Source: Oscillospiraceae bacterium
Lineage (GTDB): Bacteria; Bacillota; Clostridia; Oscillospirales; Acutalibacteraceae
Reading direction: 5' to 3'
Length of the DNA: 64,000 nucleotides
NCBI GenBank assembly: GCA_031271865.1
Contig: JAISUW010000050.1
Span: 1-64,000 of the forward strand
The translations under genes and the position numbers were made by a program. Under the pieces are notes generated by a model. The model was not told the origin of the DNA. It saw nothing but the letters and a program-made list of their open reading frames with translations, and did not search any database. The number at the start of each line of letters is the position of its first letter. Position 1 is the first letter of the stretch. Of the stretch, positions 4,794 through 29,059 are shown piece after piece.

Positions 4794-7700
4794 TTATGCC
4801 CAAATCCAACCGAAGAGGAAGTTGAAGATGGCGCAAATCCAATCCCAAATGGTCAGCCAGAAGCGGACGAAGCCGTTGGAAGCAAGGCCATTGGAGGGTT
4901 TGAAAACATTCTCGTCGAACCAGTCATTGATTTGGTCAAGGAGGGCTGTGTCTCCGCCGAGGAGGTCTACCAGTCCGGTGTAGGCAGCGCGGATGGTGTC
5001 GTTGGCCCATTCCCACAGGGAGTACACAAAGTCGGTGGATTGCACTGCGCTGAACGCCACGAAGTAGAGATTGCTCATCACGACATCGATACCCAAATCG
5101 CCGTAGAGCATGATGTCCAGAATCCAGCCCAAGCCTGCGTTGACAAAGTCAACTGCCGCATAATCCGTGCCGAGGGCATCTGCAATCTCGTGCAGCAACT
5201 CTGTGCGCTCGTTCTTGTCGCTCAGGGTTTCGAGCAGCCAGCGCACCATAGAGGTGAGGGTTTCGGCTCTGCTCTCCGGCGAGCCGTTGAAGTAACGGAC
5301 CGGATAGCCGTTGGCAACCGAACCGCCGGACTGCGAGGTCTGTGCCAGCATATCGCCCGCGACTATGACCTCCAGAATCTCTGCGACAGGACCCAAGTCA
5401 GCCGTCAAATCTGCAATGATCTCTTCCGGCGTGACTTCTACAATCGTACCCATACCGCCGCGGCGCGTCATGGAATTGAGCGCGAAGAGGATGCGGTCGA
5501 TTGCCTGTTTCGCAGGGGAACCGCCCTTATCTGCCGGTACGCCTGCATCCGATACGAAGTATGCGATATTCGGCAACAGGGCAACGAGGGCATCGCCCGG
5601 GGTCTGTACGAGGGCTTCCAGCGCGGAAGTGATGGGGTCAATAATCGCACGGAGTTTCCCGGCACTGTCGCTGCCGAGTGCTTGGTACTGCGCGGCGGTC
5701 TTCACGAGTGCGCCGTTGCCCAGCGGCAAGGTCAGCAGTTCCAAAATCGGGATGACACCTTTGCCGTATCCGTCATAGCCCGGAATGGTCAGGATGGAAT
5801 CGGCAACTTGGATGTCCTCATCCGCCAGCAGGAAGTCGAGAACCGGCACGACAGGCGACAGGTAGTTGATCAGTGCTGCAGAGAAGGTGTCCTTATCGGT
5901 GACATCCGGGTATACATACGGCGCGGAGAGGGCAGCCAAGATGAGATCCAAGTCTATCGTGGTGCCGCCGACCTTCACCAAACCCGCTTGCATTAAGTCA
6001 CGGACCGTGCGGTTGGTGATGGGGTCAAGGATGGTGCTGGTGAGGATTTGCTCTATGGCTGCGCGGTTGTCGCTGATGAGTGTCTGTACGGTATCCACAA
6101 CGGAGTCAACCAAGTCGTTGTTGTAGAGGTAGGTGCCGAAGATGTCCGTCAAGAAGCCGTCCACACTGGCACCGCCGCTGCCGATGGCTACCGTACCGAG
6201 ACCTTTCCCGGTGAGCAGGACGCAGATTTGGTTGAGGAACTCATTGAGGTGGGCCGCTGTATAAGTCGCCTGCTGCTCGGTCCAGAAGTTGTAGGGGTAC
6301 ACGGAGCTGCTGCCGCCTGCACCCGATCTATCGGGATAGTAGACATAGCCGGGTTCCGTTTCAACCGTTGCCGGGTCTATGATACCGATGATACCGGCGA
6401 GGGTTTCGTCATTGCTGATGGCATCGGCCAAGTCCGTGGCATCCAAGATGCTCACAAGCAAGTCGGGTACGCTTACCTTTATATAGGAGGCTTGGTCATT
6501 CAGCCCGGCGGTTTCGTGACCGGAACCAAAGACCGTGACCGTGCCGGTGATGAAGTCCTCAAGGCACAGAGATACATCGGCAAGAAGCGCATTGAGCATT
6601 TCGCCTACACGCAAGTCAGAGAGATCCGGGAATCCGGCAATTTCGCCTGCCAAATCCGCATAGGTGACATTCACAGCACCTAAGAGCGATGTAATCGGGT
6701 AGAGCAGGTTATCAATCGCTTGCTGCAAGGGGCTGTCGCCCGGGTTGGCAGCATCGGAGATGAAGTATGCGACATTCGGCAGGAGGTTCAGTACCGTTCC
6801 CAATGGGTCATCGCACAGCGACTCGAGTACGAAGAGCAGCGGGTCTATAACGGCATCTATCCGTTCTTGCGAGGTCGTCAGCGCGCTGTAAGCTTCGCTT
6901 GTGAGAACAACATCCTCCCCGCCGTCCAAGCCGCCGGCAAGGGCAAGCAGGATAGGCTCAATACCGTAGGCGTAACCCTGTGCGCCCTCCATCCAGAGGA
7001 AGCCGCCGCCGTCGTTGACATCTGCATTATCCACAATCTTGATGCGCTTCCCGGCGAGCAGGAAGTCCAGAAGCGGTCCGAAGCCGTCGAATAGCGAACC
7101 GATGGCAGCTTTCACGCCGCCGATGGTCGTAAGGTCATAGAGCGCGGCATTGTAGTTCTCTATCGGGTCAAAGATGGCGTCAATGTCCACAGCAGTCCCG
7201 GCGGTTGTAGCCGTGCCGCCTATGGTGATGTTGCGCTCTATCAGGTTCTTGACGGAAATCGGCTGCGTCAGACCCGGTATGCCGAAGTCAACCGTATCAA
7301 TGACGGCATTCTCAATCATGGGCTTCAAGTCGAGAATGGCATCGCGGATCAGAGGAATCAGCAGCGGCAAAGCTCCCAAGATGGTCTCCTCCAAGGAGTC
7401 CTCAATGTCGAACGCATTCCCGAGGAGCGCCTTGATGGCATCCTTGCCCGCTTGGTTGCCCGTCAGCAGCGCATTCCAAATGTAGTCGAGGATGGCATCC
7501 AAATTATCCGCGACATACTGCTGCACGGTCGGTGTGAGCCATGCCGGCGCGCTGTAACCGGTGGAGCCTGGCTGTGTCGCCTTGGCGTAATTCACCTTAA
7601 AGAGTGCGCTCAAATCCAGCGGACCGTGTACCAAGAATGTCAGGCCTTCATAGCCGTGGTCTTCCAGATACTGCGTGAGGCCGATTTGGTTGAAGAGCGC

Positions 7701-10700
7701 CATGAGCACGGCGGGCATATCGGCTTTCAGGTACTTATGACCCGCTACGCCGCCGTTCACTACCTCACCGACAGCAAAAGCCGTAAGGTCAAATTGCGCA
7801 TTCAGCAGCAGCATCCCATTGCCATCGCGCAGGATTCCGTCCGCACCGGTCAGGAGGTCTTGCACCAAGTCATTGAGTGTGCTCATCACATCCACGGAGA
7901 AGCCCTTGCCGTTGCCGTACTCTAAGACGGCAATGGGGAACAGCGCCTCCGCCAGCGTCTTGCCGCCTGCGACCTCAATGCCGTTGAGAAGCTGCAGGAC
8001 ATCAAACGACGGCCGAACGGTGTCAAGCAGCTGATAAATCGGGTGGAGCAGTCCGTCAAGTGCTTGGTTGAGCGGGCTCTCAACGGTCGGGGTGTTCGTA
8101 GCGAAGTAGGAAACGGATGCCAGCAATTGGAGAATGCTCCTAAACGGGTTATCCAGCAAGGCACTCAGCAAACCGTCCGTCGGGGATATGATGGCATTCA
8201 CTATCGCATGGAGCTGATCTTCCAGCGTGGCCAGCTGCTTGAAGTCAGCGGCGGAAACAATCGCATCCGCTTTCCCGACCGGCGCCAGCAGGGCATTTAG
8301 GATAGGTATAATCCCATATTCGTAGCCCTCGCCGCCCTTGGCGTTGATAACACCCGGATTGTCGATGTAGGCGTTTGCATAGACCATGTAGGCGGCTTCA
8401 TAAGCTTCTAAGTCTTCCGCATACTGCGCTTGGTCAAGCAAGTACTGTGGGAGAGCCGCCAAGTATGCCGCGAGGTCTGTCTGGTACTGCGCTTCATCAA
8501 TCACATACTGGGCGTCATCGATCAGATACTGCGCATAGTCCGTTGTATACTGCGCATCATCAATCACATACTGCGCATAGGCGGTCTGGTAGTCGTCATC
8601 ATCCAGCAGATACTGCGCATAGTCAAGGGTGTACTGCGCGGACTCCTGCTCCCACTGCGAATAGTCTGCCTCATACTGCTCATAGTCAGCCAAGTACTGC
8701 GTGTAGGCAGCATCGTCAATGACCCATTGCGCAAGGTCGGCATCATAGGTGACAGTGTCGCCGGCGTAGTCTGCGAAATCGGGTTCCGCTCCCGGCGGGG
8801 GAACAGCTGCCGGCGGGGTGGGCGCGGCACCCGGCGGTGTCGGCGCGGTCGGCGGGACAGGAGCAATAGGCGCTGTCGGCGCTGTCGGGGCTGTCGGAGC
8901 TGTCGGTTCAAGAAGCGGTGTCAGTGCGGCGGGCGGAACAGGTGCCGCTGCAACACTTCCGGTCGGGACAAGGCTCAGGGTGTCCCCATTCAGCAGGACA
9001 TTCAGAATCGGACCCAGCGGTGTCAGAATCTCTATCACACCGTCAATGAAGTCCTCCACGGAGGCAACGTTGTTGTCGTTGACATCCACATTGACCACGG
9101 CTTGCAGCACCGCCTGCGTATTGAACGGTACGCCGCCGATGGTAATCAGCGTTTGCAGGAGATTCAGGATGGGCAATACCTCCGGGTCGGTCAGAAGCCC
9201 GTTGATTAGGTCATCCACACTCGCCTTGAGATCCTCCAAGCCTTCCTGCGTGACAACGGTCGCGAGAAGTCCGGCAACAAACTCTGCCGCACCGATGTTG
9301 GAGGGGATGGTCTCCGGTTGGATGGAGCGGGTGAGGGCATCAATCGCGGGGTCGAGGTTCTTGACGAGGTATTCCATATCCTCGCGGGCCTCATCTGCGC
9401 CGCCGTTCGGTCCGCCCCAGAAGTCCGGGTAATCCGGATCCTGTGTAAAAGTCACATCATAGGTAATAGGCGTATAGACATAGTCCTTCGGCATCACAAG
9501 CTCCGCCAAAGTGGCAAGCAGCGCATCCGCATCGCCGAGCTTCTCGCCTACGCCCTCAATGCCCTCCAGCCACGGGTAGACCCAGCGGACAATCTGCTTG
9601 AACACATCCGCTTGGTCGGCGACGATGTAGTAACGCTGCCCGGAGGGACGCTTCGAGGCAAGGCTGTACATCTCGCCGTAGGTCGCCACGCGGCGCGGGA
9701 CAATGTTGTTGGGCAGCTCCAGCTTCACCTCGCCGGTGTCGGCATCCGTTGTCAGGAACGCCAGGAAGCCGGAGAAGCTCTGCAGGAAAGAGAGATCCAA
9801 ATCCGGGTCGCTGTCGGCATCGTCCCCATCTTTGAGGATGACATCATTCATGATGTCCAGACCGACGGGATCCATTGCACCAACCATAGCACCCAGTTTG
9901 ATTTCTTCATTAATCTCGCTCCAAGAACCTCCCAATGTGCTGGAACCGGCAGGGGCATAGAGGACAATGTCCACCCCGGCTTTCAAGCTGCCGTTGGGAA
10001 TGTTGTGCGGCAATCCAACATTCGTAGAACCGGAATAAATATCCAGAATACCGATTTGCAGTTCCCCGTCCACATCCGGTGTGATTTCCAGTTTCATGCA
10101 ATCCAGCAGGGACACTATCCGGTCGGTCTCGAGGGCAAGGGTCAGGTTCGGAATCAGGTCAAGCAAATAGGAGAGCGGCTTGGCACTGACGGCATCCACG
10201 ACTGCCTCCAGCGGGTTGAAGATATAATCCACGAACGTGCGTGCGGCCGTGCGCACTTTTGCCGCATCATAGCTATATGTCGGCAGATTTGAAGAGCGGT
10301 CATAGTGCGTCAGATTGTTTGTCTCTGTCATGGTGGGCCCGCTGGTTTTGGATTTGCTCTTATTCCCATCAGACACATATTCCTTCGTCGGCTTGTTGAC
10401 AATACTCGGGTAGGGCTCGGTCACCGGCTTGCCGTAGGAGATGGCTTTAAGCTCAGCCGCTGTCGGCAGCGCGTCGGTTACGGCTTTGCTCAGAACCGGG
10501 TCGCCGCCGGCAATCGCCTCAAAGATGGGGGTCAGCACCTCGGCAAAACCGTCCACGCCGGGCGCCTCCAACTCAAGGAAGATATGCGGGCACTTAATCG
10601 GAATCGATTGGTCGCCGTATCCATCCAGATATTTATCATAGGTTCCCACTGCGTACCCAATCTTATTCTGGTAGCCGTAGTAGTTCTGCCCCGCAAGGAG

Positions 10701-24459: not shown

Positions 24460-24488
24460 TTGACTTTTCCCAAGAAGCAGCGTATAAT
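24460..24488 (+). promoter_or_regulatory. Promoter TTGACT-17-TATAAT of the RyR/RelA cassette
   Basis: ttgact 24460-24465; tataat 24483-24488; surrounded by inverted repeats (see findings). Confidence 0.8.
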
Positions 24489-24550: not shown

Positions 24551-26107
24551 ATGATCAAACAGTTACAGCGGCTGCAATTGGCAGCAATCGCCGCCGTGTT
24601 CTGCGGGGGAGCCGCTTTCTATACCGCCGGTCTTTTGGCGGGAGGGAGCAGTTTTGCCGGAGCGTTGGCAGGCGGTGTCTCGAACTCTTTATGTATGTTC
24701 TTTGCCAACCACAACGTTGACCTGGTCGAAACCGCCCCTTGGTTCTCCCCTCCCCTCGCCCTGCTCTTTTGGCTTATTCACATCGCGGCCGTTTTCCTGA
24801 CGGCTTACAGTTTGCTGCAAATCGTTGCCAAGCAGTTTACCATCAACCTGCGTATCCTTTTTGGACGATACGGCAAAATCTACATTCTGCAGGATGCTAC
24901 GCCGGAGAATGTTCTGCTCGCCCGCAACATAGCGACCGACGATGGCAAAGTTCAAGCGGACAAGCAGTCACTGGTCGTTATCACCGACCCGGACGCCGGG
25001 GAGGACTGCCGTTCGCAGGTCGCCTCTTTCGGTGGGTATCTTTGCCGGGAGGCCAAAACCAATCCGCTGTTAGAGGCTAAGATGAAGAAGCGAGAGGTCG
25101 TCGAGATTAAACCGGTCCATGCAGAGGAACTCGCCGCCCGGCAGGCGATTGCCGAGCATCCGCCGTACGAGTGCCTGGCTTTCGATGCGGGCAAAGCCAA
25201 TCGCGGATTGCACGCGCTGGTTCTCGGTTTTGCCGAATTGGGGCAGGAGATGGCACTGCAACTCATCCGGAACAGTCAATTCGTGGGCGGCCGGCCGCGC
25301 ATAACCGTAATCGACCGCAGAGCGGACAGCCTGAAGCCGCAGTTTAAGTTTCATTATCCCTGCTTGGATATGTGCTGTGACATCGAGTTCCACAACTGCG
25401 ATGTGACGGACGCGGAGTACTACAAGCTCTTGGACGGCTTGCAACCGGACTACGTGGCCGCAGCCTTAGGGACGGCGGAAAAGGACAAAGCGGCGCTCGC
25501 GGACATCACCACCTCTTTCCTGCGCCGCGATTTGCCGTTGCCGGTTGCAATCTCCATGTCCGCCTATGCCGAGATAGATAGAATCTACACAAAAGCGTTG
25601 GTGGTCAATGAAGCACTCGACCGCATGGCCATGGCGGTGAACGGTGTATATTCGAATGCGGCCGACAGCGCAGAGAGCAAAGCTCGGTGGGATAAACTGG
25701 ACGAATTCAGCAAGCAATCCAGCCGCGCCTCGGCTGATTTCATCGCAGCCCATTTGCATATCGCCGGGGTCAGCTTGGAGGAAGCCATTGAATGCGGCAA
25801 AGACGCTAAACCTCTGCCGGTATCCGAGGAACTCACGGAAGTGCTTGCCGAAACAGAGCATCTGCGGTGGAATGCGTTCCACTTCTGTGCGGGATTCCGT
25901 CCGGAGACAGTAGACAAGCTTCTTCCGCAACGAAAGGACCTCGAGCGCAGGCTTCATATCTGCCTCGTGCCCTATGCAGAGTTAGATGACCTAAGCCAAG
26001 ACTATAACAGCCGAGCCGGTGCAAAACGAAATTTCAAGAATAATGACCGCGCTATTATTCAGAATCTGCCGCAGTTTTTGTCTCAGACGCACGGCAATTC
26101 GATATAA
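24551..26107 (+). CDS. Membrane-anchored RCK/TrkA-N-like Rossmann protein with C-terminal RyR-like domain
   Basis: N-terminal TM segments (AAIAAVFCGGAAFYTAGLLAG; PPLALLFWLIHIAAVFLTAYSLL); Rossmann-like HALVLGFAELGQEMALQLIRNSQF...ITVIDR; C-terminal VLAETEHLRWNAFHFCAGFRP...RRLHICLVPYAELDD resembles RyR (PF02026). ATG at 24551. Confidence 0.65.
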   Translation: MIKQLQRLQLAAIAAVFCGGAAFYTAGLLAGGSSFAGALAGGVSNSLCMFFANHNVDLVETAPWFSPPLALLFWLIHIAAVFLTAYSLLQIVAKQFTINLRILFGRYGKIYILQDATPENVLLARNIATDDGKVQADKQSLVVITDPDAGEDCRSQVASFGGYLCREAKTNPLLEAKMKKREVVEIKPVHAEELAARQAIAEHPPYECLAFDAGKANRGLHALVLGFAELGQEMALQLIRNSQFVGGRPRITVIDRRADSLKPQFKFHYPCLDMCCDIEFHNCDVTDAEYYKLLDGLQPDYVAAALGTAEKDKAALADITTSFLRRDLPLPVAISMSAYAEIDRIYTKALVVNEALDRMAMAVNGVYSNAADSAESKARWDKLDEFSKQSSRASADFIAAHLHIAGVSLEEAIECGKDAKPLPVSEELTEVLAETEHLRWNAFHFCAGFRPETVDKLLPQRKDLERRLHICLVPYAELDDLSQDYNSRAGAKRNFKNNDRAIIQNLPQFLSQTHGNSI

Positions 26108-26159
26108 ACAAAACATGACTGAAACGAGATGGCTAATCGCTCATCCTAAGGAGTTCAAT

Positions 26160-28646
26160 ATGGAACCTTCCCCCACCCTCCAAAAAGCCGAAGCCCTCAT
26201 GCGCCGCGCCCACGAGGGGCAGACGGACAAGGCGGGGCAGCCATATTATTTGCATCCTTTGGCGGTGGCCGCGCTGGTCGACGGCGAAGAGGCAAAGGCA
26301 GTTGCCCTGCTCCATGATGTGTCGGAAGACTGCGGCATCAGTGCCGCCATGCTGAAGACGGAGGGCTTCCATGCCGCCATTGTCGAGACCGTGCAAGTGC
26401 TGGAACGCAGACCGGGCGACAACTACTGGGATTACCTCCGACGAATTGCCGATTACCCATTGGCAGTACAGGTAAAGCTCGCGGATTTGGCGCATAACAG
26501 CGACCGCTCGCGCCTGCCCGACCCCACGCCTGCGGATGAAGCCCGCTATGCCAAGTACGCCAAGGCTACAGCTTACCTACTAGGCATCCAAAAGCTGAAA
26601 GCGGAGCGCGCGGACATCGATTTCAGCGAGGCACCGTACAAGTTTCTCCTCCACCGCCGCCTGTATGCGCTCTTGCGGCCGGACTACATCCAACTGGCCG
26701 CCGACTTGCAGGAGAACCTGCAAAGGGAAATCCATGATATCTGCCCCGGTGCGATTGTGCAAAGCCGCGCCAAGAACCTCGACAGCTTCACGGAAAAATG
26801 CGTCCGCAAAGCCAAGAAATACGGCACAAAACACTTCGAGATGATGACCGACCTCTGCGGGGTGCGTGTCATTGTGCAGACCCTGCGGCAGGTGGACGAT
26901 GTTTGCGCCTATATAAAGGAAACCTACGAAATCGACTGGCCCAACAGCGAGGATGCCGGGGCGCGGTTGGGTTCGGCGGAGTTTGGCTATCGCTCCCAGC
27001 ATTTTGTGGTTATTGCAGACGGGCGCAAAGCGGAGATTCAGGTGCGCACTTTCGCGCAGCACATCAACGCCGACACACTCCATGACCGGATGTACAAATC
27101 CGCCATCACGCCGACCAAAGACCACGAGCGCGGCGCAGCCCGCATCGCCGCGCAACTCGACAATGCCGACATCCTGTTGGACGAATTCGTCAGCGGCTTC
27201 GACTTCTTCAGCCTGAACCAGACGACATACCGCCCCACCGGCACGATTGAGGCAGACATCGCCATCCTCCGCGCCATCAACAGCGATGTGAGCGACCCGA
27301 ACGCGCGGTTGGAGAATTCCCTCAAGATAGCGAGGCTCTTGCGCTCGCTCTGCGCATTCGAGGAGATTCTGTCCGAGCTGAAAGCCTATGATGCCAAGGA
27401 GAATCCCGATTGGCTCTTCGAGTACGGTATTGCCCTGTGCGCTTCCGAGGAGAATCGTCTCAAAGGTGCCAAGTTCGTTAAGCAAGCGCTCGATGCTTAT
27501 TCCAAGTATGAACAAGACAACACCGCCAAATGGCAGAAGCAAAAGCGGCAGCTCATCTCCTTGCTCCTGTCAGCCGGCCGGTTTACCGGTAAGGCAGTGT
27601 ACTATGAGCGCGTCCTCGCCATGGACAGCAGCAACCCTTACGCCGCGGCTGAGCTGATTGACGGCTCCTTGAAAGGCAACCAACTGACTTTCCGCGCAGC
27701 AGCCAAACGTGCCAAAGCGCACTTGGCAGCACACATCAACGAGCCGGATATATACTTTATATTGGGGCATCTGCAATTGGCGCTCGGTGAAGAGCACGCG
27801 GCGTTGGAGGCATTCTTGGACGGTCTCCTCTTCTTCCGCGCGCATCATGCGGACGAGAACAAGCCCCTGCGCCGCGCTTACGAGCGCGAGATTCTGAAGC
27901 TCACAGATTCGGAGAACGACATCGCCGATTGCGTCTATCAGTTGGCGGAGAACCCGCAACCCGGTGAACTTATCATCATCAAAGATGCCGGCGGCGAAGC
28001 CTTGCAGAAGATTAAGATTGCCGCCCTCAACGGCACGGAGGTCATCTGCACGCACCCTGCCGCGCAGGCGGAGCTTATCCGGTTAGACAATCCGGTATTG
28101 CGCAAGTTTGTGTTCACCCTGCCGGACGAACCGGAGAGCCTCGCCGCTTTCCGGCATACACCGACAGAATCCCTCATCCAAGGGGATTCGCTCACCGCGC
28201 TTGCCAAGAAAAGCCACGAAGACTACGTCTCGAAGCGACTGCTGCAGCAACGCAACGCAGAGGAAAACCTTGCCGACTGGGAAAACTTGCGCGAAACGTA
28301 TAAGACTGCCAACCGCAGTCAGGTTGCAGATGAAGTCTACGTTTTCGAGAGCTGCGGCTTTTCGGTTATCCAAAGCGCTGAACGGCCGGAGAACGCCTTG
28401 ACCTATGCGGATTTGACAGCGGCCGAGCAGGAGAAACTCGCCCGCGCCGAGCACGGCCGCTGGAACGCGGACAAAGTGCGCGATGGCTGGCTTTACGCGC
28501 CCAAACGTGATAACGCGCGCAAACTCCACCCCTGCCTTGTCGCTTTCGACCGCTTACCGCCGGAGATACAGAAATATGATTACGACAAGATTGAAGAGAC
28601 GATGAAGTGGTATGCGGAGGTAGGGGTTTGGGTCAAGCGGGGGTAG
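26160..28646 (+). CDS. HD - RelA/SpoT nucleotidyltransferase - TPR-like - RyR domain protein
   Basis: HD: YYLHPLAVAALVDGEEAKAVALLHDVSED; RelA/SpoT: RAKNLDSFTEKCVRKAKKY...MTDLCGVRVIVQT...FGYRSQHFVV...AEIQVRTFAQH; helical repeats; RyR: KLARAEHGRWNADKVRDGWLYAPKRDNARKLHPCLVAFDRLPPEIQKYDYDKI. ATG 26160 with RBS aaggag. Confidence 0.85.
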   Translation: MEPSPTLQKAEALMRRAHEGQTDKAGQPYYLHPLAVAALVDGEEAKAVALLHDVSEDCGISAAMLKTEGFHAAIVETVQVLERRPGDNYWDYLRRIADYPLAVQVKLADLAHNSDRSRLPDPTPADEARYAKYAKATAYLLGIQKLKAERADIDFSEAPYKFLLHRRLYALLRPDYIQLAADLQENLQREIHDICPGAIVQSRAKNLDSFTEKCVRKAKKYGTKHFEMMTDLCGVRVIVQTLRQVDDVCAYIKETYEIDWPNSEDAGARLGSAEFGYRSQHFVVIADGRKAEIQVRTFAQHINADTLHDRMYKSAITPTKDHERGAARIAAQLDNADILLDEFVSGFDFFSLNQTTYRPTGTIEADIAILRAINSDVSDPNARLENSLKIARLLRSLCAFEEILSELKAYDAKENPDWLFEYGIALCASEENRLKGAKFVKQALDAYSKYEQDNTAKWQKQKRQLISLLLSAGRFTGKAVYYERVLAMDSSNPYAAAELIDGSLKGNQLTFRAAAKRAKAHLAAHINEPDIYFILGHLQLALGEEHAALEAFLDGLLFFRAHHADENKPLRRAYEREILKLTDSENDIADCVYQLAENPQPGELIIIKDAGGEALQKIKIAALNGTEVICTHPAAQAELIRLDNPVLRKFVFTLPDEPESLAAFRHTPTESLIQGDSLTALAKKSHEDYVSKRLLQQRNAEENLADWENLRETYKTANRSQVADEVYVFESCGFSVIQSAERPENALTYADLTAAEQEKLARAEHGRWNADKVRDGWLYAPKRDNARKLHPCLVAFDRLPPEIQKYDYDKIEETMKWYAEVGVWVKRG

Positions 28647-28735: not shown

Positions 28736-29059
28736 TTGAAATTAATGATTGCCGTAATCCACTCCGATGACTGTCCGGCGGTGTTGGATGCTTTGGCAGG
28801 CCGCGGGATTGCGTTCACGCGTCTTTCCACTACAGGCGGTTTTCTGCGCGCCGGAAACGATACGCTCCTTATCGGCGTGGAGGACAACGGCATAGAGGAT
28901 GTCATGCAGGTGCTCCGTGAGTTCTGCTCCGTCCGCAAGCAATTCCTGGATGTGGGGCAAGCTCCATTCTTGGGAACCCTCCTGCATGCTCCCGTGGAAG
29001 TCACCGTCGGCGGGGCAACTGTCTTTGTGGTTGAAGTCGCAGACTTCAGGAAAATCTAA
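28736..29059 (+). CDS. darA: P-II-like cyclic-di-AMP receptor
   Basis: MKLMIAVIHSDDCPAVLDALAGRGIAFTRLSTTGGFLRAGNDTLLIGVEDNGIEDVMQVLREFC; TTG start; overlaps holB start (TAATG). Confidence 0.88.
   Translation: MKLMIAVIHSDDCPAVLDALAGRGIAFTRLSTTGGFLRAGNDTLLIGVEDNGIEDVMQVLREFCSVRKQFLDVGQAPFLGTLLHAPVEVTVGGATVFVVEVADFRKI

Follow-up and report, generated by a model that had tools for sequence, protein, structure and literature searches.

The window analysed here, a 64,000-nt stretch of contig JAISUW010000050.1 from an Oscillospiraceae bacterium, carries a cassette of two genes, A and B, each encoding a protein with an RyR domain (a probable one in A) near its C-terminus. We tentatively propose that this cassette is a nucleotide-signalling switch, in which a ligand sensed by the RyR domains would control both an alarmone enzyme (B) and a membrane effector (A), probably in phage conflict; we judge the chances of this reading to be close to even, falling slightly short. 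The genes lie 52 bp apart on the plus strand, as do all features of the cassette listed below. Gene A (24551..26107, an ORF of 518 aa) encodes a predicted membrane protein with two transmembrane (TM) segments, dual RCK-like Rossmann domains and RyR, as assigned by profile–profile match. Gene B (26160..28646, 828 aa) encodes a protein with the order HD, RelA/SpoT synthetase, TPR-like repeats, half a SLOG domain and RyR, as judged from its ORF, Pfam and an AlphaFold2 (AF2) model. A strong sigma-70-like promoter site, TTGACT-17-TATAAT (24460..24488, 11/12 consensus matches), is common to both genes, in agreement with the first-pass annotation of this DNA, which had placed two adjacent plus-strand genes behind one promoter. 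Gene B is also preceded by a perfect Shine–Dalgarno sequence, AAGGAG (26148..26153).

RyR domains and their ligand pockets

The RyR domain of gene B (aa 757–825, 28428..28634) scores 56.8 bits against a Pfam cut-off of 27.4. Among solved structures, the tail of the protein is matched by phmmer with ryanodine receptors and with an RyR protein of bacteria, and Foldseek pairs it with RyR3 Repeat12 in complex with ADP or ATP analogues. A phage enzyme of the RyR type, RyDEP, binds cyclic ADP-ribose (cADPR) isomers or a cADPR-derived ligand via H75, W78, H100 and D117 (PMC13232231); all four residues are present in B with the same spacing (H765, W768, H790 and D807). For gene A, the RyR domain (aa 426–505, 25826..26065) returned a sub-threshold Pfam score (17.6 bits, E 0.0045), and the four pocket residues are again present in the residue alignment (H437, W440, H469 and D499), with insertions between them. 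The first-pass claim of an RyR domain near the C-terminus of both proteins thus stands outright for B; for A, the domain score alone falls short and the pocket residues and homologues favour RyR.

Across 25 RyR copies from the loci described here, the first histidine and the tryptophan are invariant (25/25 each), the aspartate is kept in 22/25 (asparagine in the other three) and the second histidine in 17/25. In the cassette, the residues of the RyDEP catalytic dyad, which cleaves 2′/3′cADPR, are present as well, and a glycosidase activity is putative. Only 10 of the 398 genomes in the phylum sample contain RyR, which excludes chance as the source of the RyR observation.

Alarmone enzyme domains of gene B

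The synthetase domain of gene B (aa 202–315, 26763..27104) scores 64 bits in Pfam (RelA_SpoT), above cut-off. Its HD domain (aa 4–140, 26169..26579) scores 20 bits (HD_4), below cut-off, and matches the (p)ppApp hydrolase 7smg among solved structures (phmmer, E 1e-22). Alignment with canonical Rel revealed that all signature residues are kept in the HD (H32, H52-D53, E56-D57, D109 and N113) and in the synthetase (R203, K205, D231, R236, Y277, H281, E292, Q294 and R296), bearing out the earlier view that both sets of motifs are intact, and that the region between the two domains is shorter in B. No TGS or ACT domain was found in B by Pfam; helical repeats and RyR occupy the C-terminus, as first described. 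The repeats are TPR-like (aa 350–583, 27207..27908), as judged from AF2 secondary structure and TPR matches in relatives. In the AF2 model, the synthetase, the repeats and the RyR part are good enough to use (pLDDT mostly about 70–94), but the HD, a domain that the relatives lack in the same chain, is not.

Two features go beyond the first-pass annotation, namely a partial SLOG domain, described below, and the affinity of the HD to small alarmone hydrolases (SAHs) rather than to Rel. In our tree, the HDs of the window and of loci L045 and L079 group with stand-alone SAHs and not with Rel HDs, the L045 and L079 HDs being sisters. Canonical Rel ancestry of the HD of gene B was ruled out by identity and by the tree, in which the branch of the window HD is long. 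The synthetase, in turn, groups by Foldseek with small alarmone synthetases (SASs), the nearest being Bacillus subtilis SAS1. Both enzyme domains resemble those of small RelA/SpoT homologues (RSHs), though B, a multi-domain chain of 828 aa, is not the single small protein by which small RSHs are defined. The genome of the window (G000; 2.4 Mb in 70 contigs, with the window on contig C26) also encodes a canonical Rel on another contig. The sequence evidence supports the prediction that gene B encodes a bifunctional-looking alarmone producer and eraser.

The gene B family and its HD or NUDIX partners

As a single query against genome contigs, B returned no matches, and an alignment of B with its first relative, L045 (genome G481), was required to search the species genomes. 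This search found 11 further loci, ten of them full-length (L069–L072 and L074–L079) and one a fragment (L073), giving 11 full-length relatives with L045 included. Their hosts belong to Verrucomicrobiota, Kiritimatiellota, Planctomycetota, Cloacimonadota, Myxococcota and other groups, and the family also occurs in Bacillota; it is rare yet taxonomically wide. The relatives have the architecture RelA_SpoT, TPR, SLOG (LSDAT, of the TRPM type) and RyR, with SLOG recognised in most. B is collinear with the 11 members over synthetase, TPR and RyR (26–32 % identity), and its synthetase falls inside the RelA_SpoT-RyR clade with a support of 100/100. The window protein is the only member with an HD in the same chain. 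Three stand-alone RelA_SpoT genes (L048, L049 and L080) were set aside as family members, as they form a separate clade in the tree.

SLOG of the TRPM type binds ADP-ribose (ADPR). In B, only the C-terminal half of this domain is detected, and weakly (aa 595–664, 27942..28151); the family alignment indicates that the first half, and with it a complete GGT/PG-loop SLOG, is absent. The AF2 model has a beta-alpha-beta arrangement in this segment, and hhalign aligned it to SLOG positions 107–179 with P 0.016, against 0.27–0.76 for shuffled sequences.

No relatives of A or B were found on viral contigs, and a tblastn search of plasmids and phages with B returned, among the matches listed, only hits of the Rel/SAH type, none of which spanned more than half of B. 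RelA/SpoT-RyR fusions were not described in any paper that our literature search covered, the 2015 LSDAT/SLOG survey lying outside its reach. That survey, by Burroughs et al., is said to have linked prokaryotic LSDAT with TIR, NUDIX, other nucleotide enzymes and RyR, and it may reportedly have predicted a SLOG/RyR/RelA class.

The partners of the enzyme follow a pattern. A NUDIX gene adjoins it in eight loci (L070, where it is divergent, L071, L072, L074, L075, L076, L077 and L078), those of L070, L075 and L076 having been found by a hidden Markov model search of open frames. An SAH-type HD occurs in three, fused in the window, encoded by a separate gene directly upstream in L045 and lying ~5 kb downstream in L079. 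None of the 12 loci has both, and only L069, on a 10-kb contig, has neither; the chance of all three HD loci landing among the four loci without NUDIX is 0.018. Hydrolysis of (p)ppGpp is known for the NUDIX enzyme NahA (PMC7584652), and that of both (p)ppGpp and (p)ppApp for SAHs (PMC9765508). Most simply, HD and NUDIX would both erase the product of the synthetase, and we infer from the gene content that one eraser has been swapped for the other in this family. Such a swap would predict the chemistry of the signal, which should be destroyable by both enzyme classes, e.g. (p)ppGpp or (p)ppApp. In L077, a second NUDIX reading frame (9442–10305) overlaps the start of the RelA_SpoT-RyR gene, the other NUDIX gene lying downstream.

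The membrane protein encoded by gene A

Hydropathy places two TM segments in A, at aa 8–26 and 64–93; together they span the TM or pseudo-pore region (aa 8–93, 24572..24829), whose homologous region in the family aligns with the TM-RCK part of GsuK and MthK. The GFAELG glycine motif (25226..25243) lies in the second Rossmann domain, and its G226 and G231 are conserved in alignments A2 and A5. The first-pass description of N-terminal TM segments, a GFAELG Rossmann region and no TxGYG filter proved accurate.

Alone, A gave no direct match to RCK potassium channels, and the link requires a chain of profiles. As a profile with its homologues L041 and L043, A matches TrkA_N-RyR membrane proteins over 423 columns that include the membrane part (E 8e-18), and in this group the TM and RCK regions in turn match those of GsuK and MthK, though the selectivity filter is missing. 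The layout of a 2TM pore followed by Rossmann RCK domains is thus reached by the chain A5-A6-GsuK, and our structural claims for gene A go no further than profile homology. The predicted product is a membrane protein, divergent in sequence, with two helices, two RCK domains and a probable RyR domain at the C-terminus, and it probably derives from 2TM-RCK proteins of the GsuK/MthK type. GsuK is a channel activated by ADP and NAD+ (PMC3510474).

Genomic context

TIR genes lie next to or near the RelA_SpoT-RyR enzyme in L071, L075, L078 and L079, and DUF4062 genes near it in L069 and L074, so that one or the other is found in 6/11 relatives. In the Myxococcales locus L079, the gene immediately upstream of the enzyme (8492–9931) encodes a fusion of an aspartyl protease-like domain and TIR. 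RyR proteins of the A type, without RelA/SpoT, adjoin TIR as well, in L041 (Butyrivibrio plasmid pNP243), L046 (G509), L066 (G672) and L115 (G798); locus L068 of G752, related to L066, has an identical gene order. The L115 locus (contig C207, 542–5257), from the same bacterial family as the window, is an operon of a TIR-leucine-rich repeat (LRR) gene, a degenerate TIR-LRR gene, a gene for a 582-aa RyR protein and a YpsA-like SLOG gene, and by its sequence looks like a TIR-RyR signalling system. The L046 operon combines a TIR gene and a gene for a membrane RyR protein with one for an AAA ATPase that ends in an RyR domain (5812–8004). In L070, a stand-alone gene for a 108-aa RyR protein (9932–10258) lies directly upstream of the RelA_SpoT-SLOG-RyR gene; this protein could be a sponge, a ligand hydrolase or an extra sensor. 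The genome of the window has three TIR-domain genes on other contigs (C59, C20 and C33; L116–L118), which are possible sources of ADPR-type signals.

A gene of the RCK/TrkA type is adjacent to the enzyme in the window and in L074, where the order is enzyme, NUDIX, TrkA_N membrane protein and DUF4062-NACHT, and lies nearby in L070 (~6 kb) and G481 (~12 kb). The pairing of A and B is therefore recurrent, and neither obligatory nor general.

The cassette itself sits between a gene for a beta-helix-like protein and a conserved darA-holB-psp1 block. Directly downstream and outside the cassette, the first gene of this block (28736–29059) is DarA/YaaQ-like, a cyclic di-AMP receptor type by sequence. 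Nine family members with flanking sequence have the holB region with nothing A- or B-like upstream of it, and full-length B was found in no other species of the genus that was sampled, nor in the sampled relatives of the family and class. We consider the cassette accessory because nothing like it lies upstream of holB in these nine genomes and the other sampled member of the genus lacks a full-length B. A foreign origin by base composition was considered and dropped, as the GC content and base composition of the cassette are like those of its flanks.

Proposed function and alternatives

Under the switch that we propose, the RyR pockets would bind an adenine-nucleotide or ADP-ribose-type signal, e.g. 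a TIR product. The synthetase and the SAH-type HD of B would form a make-and-erase pair, with the TPR-RyR tail (plus SLOG in the relatives) as a regulatory sensor. Ligand bound to B would shift the balance of the enzyme from hydrolysis towards synthesis of an alarmone, (p)ppGpp or (p)ppApp, while the same type of ligand would act on the membrane effector A. Together, the two proteins may bring about growth arrest or membrane perturbation during phage attack or a similar stress, after which the HD would reset the system. If this is correct, the ligand sensor that governs alarmone synthesis is one also found in animal calcium channels (RyR and, in the relatives, TRPM-type SLOG), and the cassette offers prokaryotic RyR domains, assayed as phage counter-defence proteins in PMC13232231, a host role that can be tested. 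A more specific relay, in which RyR and SLOG read an NAD-derived, ADPR-type immune signal, the fused RelA/SpoT enzyme makes an alarmone, the RCK-derived RyR membrane protein acts in parallel and HD or NUDIX resets the system, is possible and in our view rather doubtful; it would join TIR/ADPR and stringent-response signalling in one module.

Several observations weigh against the proposed switch. At the filter position of A, the alignment has no TxGYG- or TVGYG-type selectivity filter, so that ion conduction is doubtful. Structure prediction, which the first-pass annotation had suggested for both proteins, gave a poor model for A (pLDDT 37). The window protein has only a truncated SLOG sensor. 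No TIR gene lies inside the cassette, which thus lacks the combination of TIR/ThsB and a ThsA-type effector that defines Thoeris. Beyond the neighbours listed above, no RCK/TrkA-type gene was seen in the sequence retrieved around most relatives. The surroundings of the cassette are a housekeeping neighbourhood and not a defence island; PADLOC gives partial candidate matches only and there is no direct evidence for defence. Finally, RyR proteins of phages need not be sensors and can act as sponges or glycosidases instead. The first-pass idea of an alarmone producer and eraser coupled to a membrane effector by a shared RyR domain hence survives in its parts, a bifunctional-looking B, an RCK-type A and a shared RyR module for ligand binding, and not as an obligate pair; its suggested stress or phage-conflict setting is supported by the company that the homologues keep, with TIR, DUF4062-STAND and NACHT genes, and not by the cassette's own neighbourhood.

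The main alternative is that the RyR domains read the product of the synthetase itself. The enzyme would make an alarmone with adenine as its base, for instance (p)ppApp, and both RyR domains would act as its receptors, feeding back on B and gating A in a CBASS-like logic. The nearest structure to the HD is that of a (p)ppApp hydrolase, maker and membrane partner carry the same RyR pocket, RyR3 Repeat12 binds ADP/ATP analogues, and the enzyme is always accompanied by an eraser except on one short contig. However, A-type RyR membrane proteins occur without RelA/SpoT beside TIR, which suggests an NAD-derived ligand, and an RyR membrane protein is missing from the sequence retrieved around most RelA_SpoT-RyR loci; we regard this explanation as unlikely, if worth serious attention. 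The SAS-like synthetase fold would also suit a toxin–antitoxin arrangement, in which a toxSAS-like inhibitor, acting by alarmone or by tRNA pyrophosphorylation, is held off by the HD in cis (elsewhere by NUDIX or HD in trans), the RyR/TPR tail is a CapRel-like sensor of a phage trigger and A is loosely associated. The HD belongs to the SAH type, the class that detoxifies toxSAS, and 11/12 loci have an HD or NUDIX partner. NahA-type NUDIX enzymes, however, cut between the 5′ alpha and beta phosphates (PMC7584652) and would not obviously reverse tRNA pyrophosphorylation, and both the TIR neighbours and the SLOG-RyR sensor, which is large and conserved, speak for a signal under ligand control rather than for a simple toxin–antitoxin pair, leaving this arrangement decidedly improbable.

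We give the least credence, and little of it, to a metabolic or stress sensor outside conflict, with RyR and RCK reading NAD(H)/ADP status in normal physiology and tuning ion transport and the level of alarmone. The chromosomal housekeeping site next to darA-holB-psp1, the ability of RCK domains to read NAD/ADP and a base composition like the surroundings would all fit, but the distribution of full-length B in the sampled genus, family and class is patchy and the homologues neighbour TIR, NACHT and DUF4062 genes.

Comparison with known systems

Like the long RSHs (Rel, RelA and SpoT), B has an HD followed by a RelA/SpoT synthetase in one chain with signature residues intact in both; unlike them, it lacks TGS, ZFD and ACT domains, has a short linker and an HD of SAH lineage and ends in a tail of TPR, half SLOG and RyR. 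The HD of the window protein seems to represent a fusion of its own. B shares with SAS, SAH and toxSAS pairs a synthetase fold nearest B. subtilis SAS1 and an HD nearest stand-alone SAHs and the (p)ppApp hydrolase, but in B the two are fused to each other and to a putative ligand-sensor tail. The A family aligns with GsuK over the TM and RCK region of GsuK/MthK-type potassium channels, whereas A lacks a TVGYG filter and has a probable C-terminal RyR domain and divergent Rossmann domains. Compared with the LSDAT/SLOG systems reportedly covered in 2015, the cassette is an HD-fused, SLOG-truncated form with an RCK-RyR partner, and the exclusivity of HD and NUDIX is measured here. The homologues of A and B are reminiscent of Thoeris and TIR-SLOG systems in lying beside TIR genes and, for the relatives of B, in carrying SLOG, whereas in the cassette there is no TIR and the enzyme is a RelA/SpoT synthetase. 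Finally, B has all four ligand residues of RyDEP and RyR Repeat12 (PF02026) at the same spacing; here, RyR is a domain of host signalling proteins rather than a stand-alone phage sponge or glycosidase, with a putative ligand and putative catalysis.

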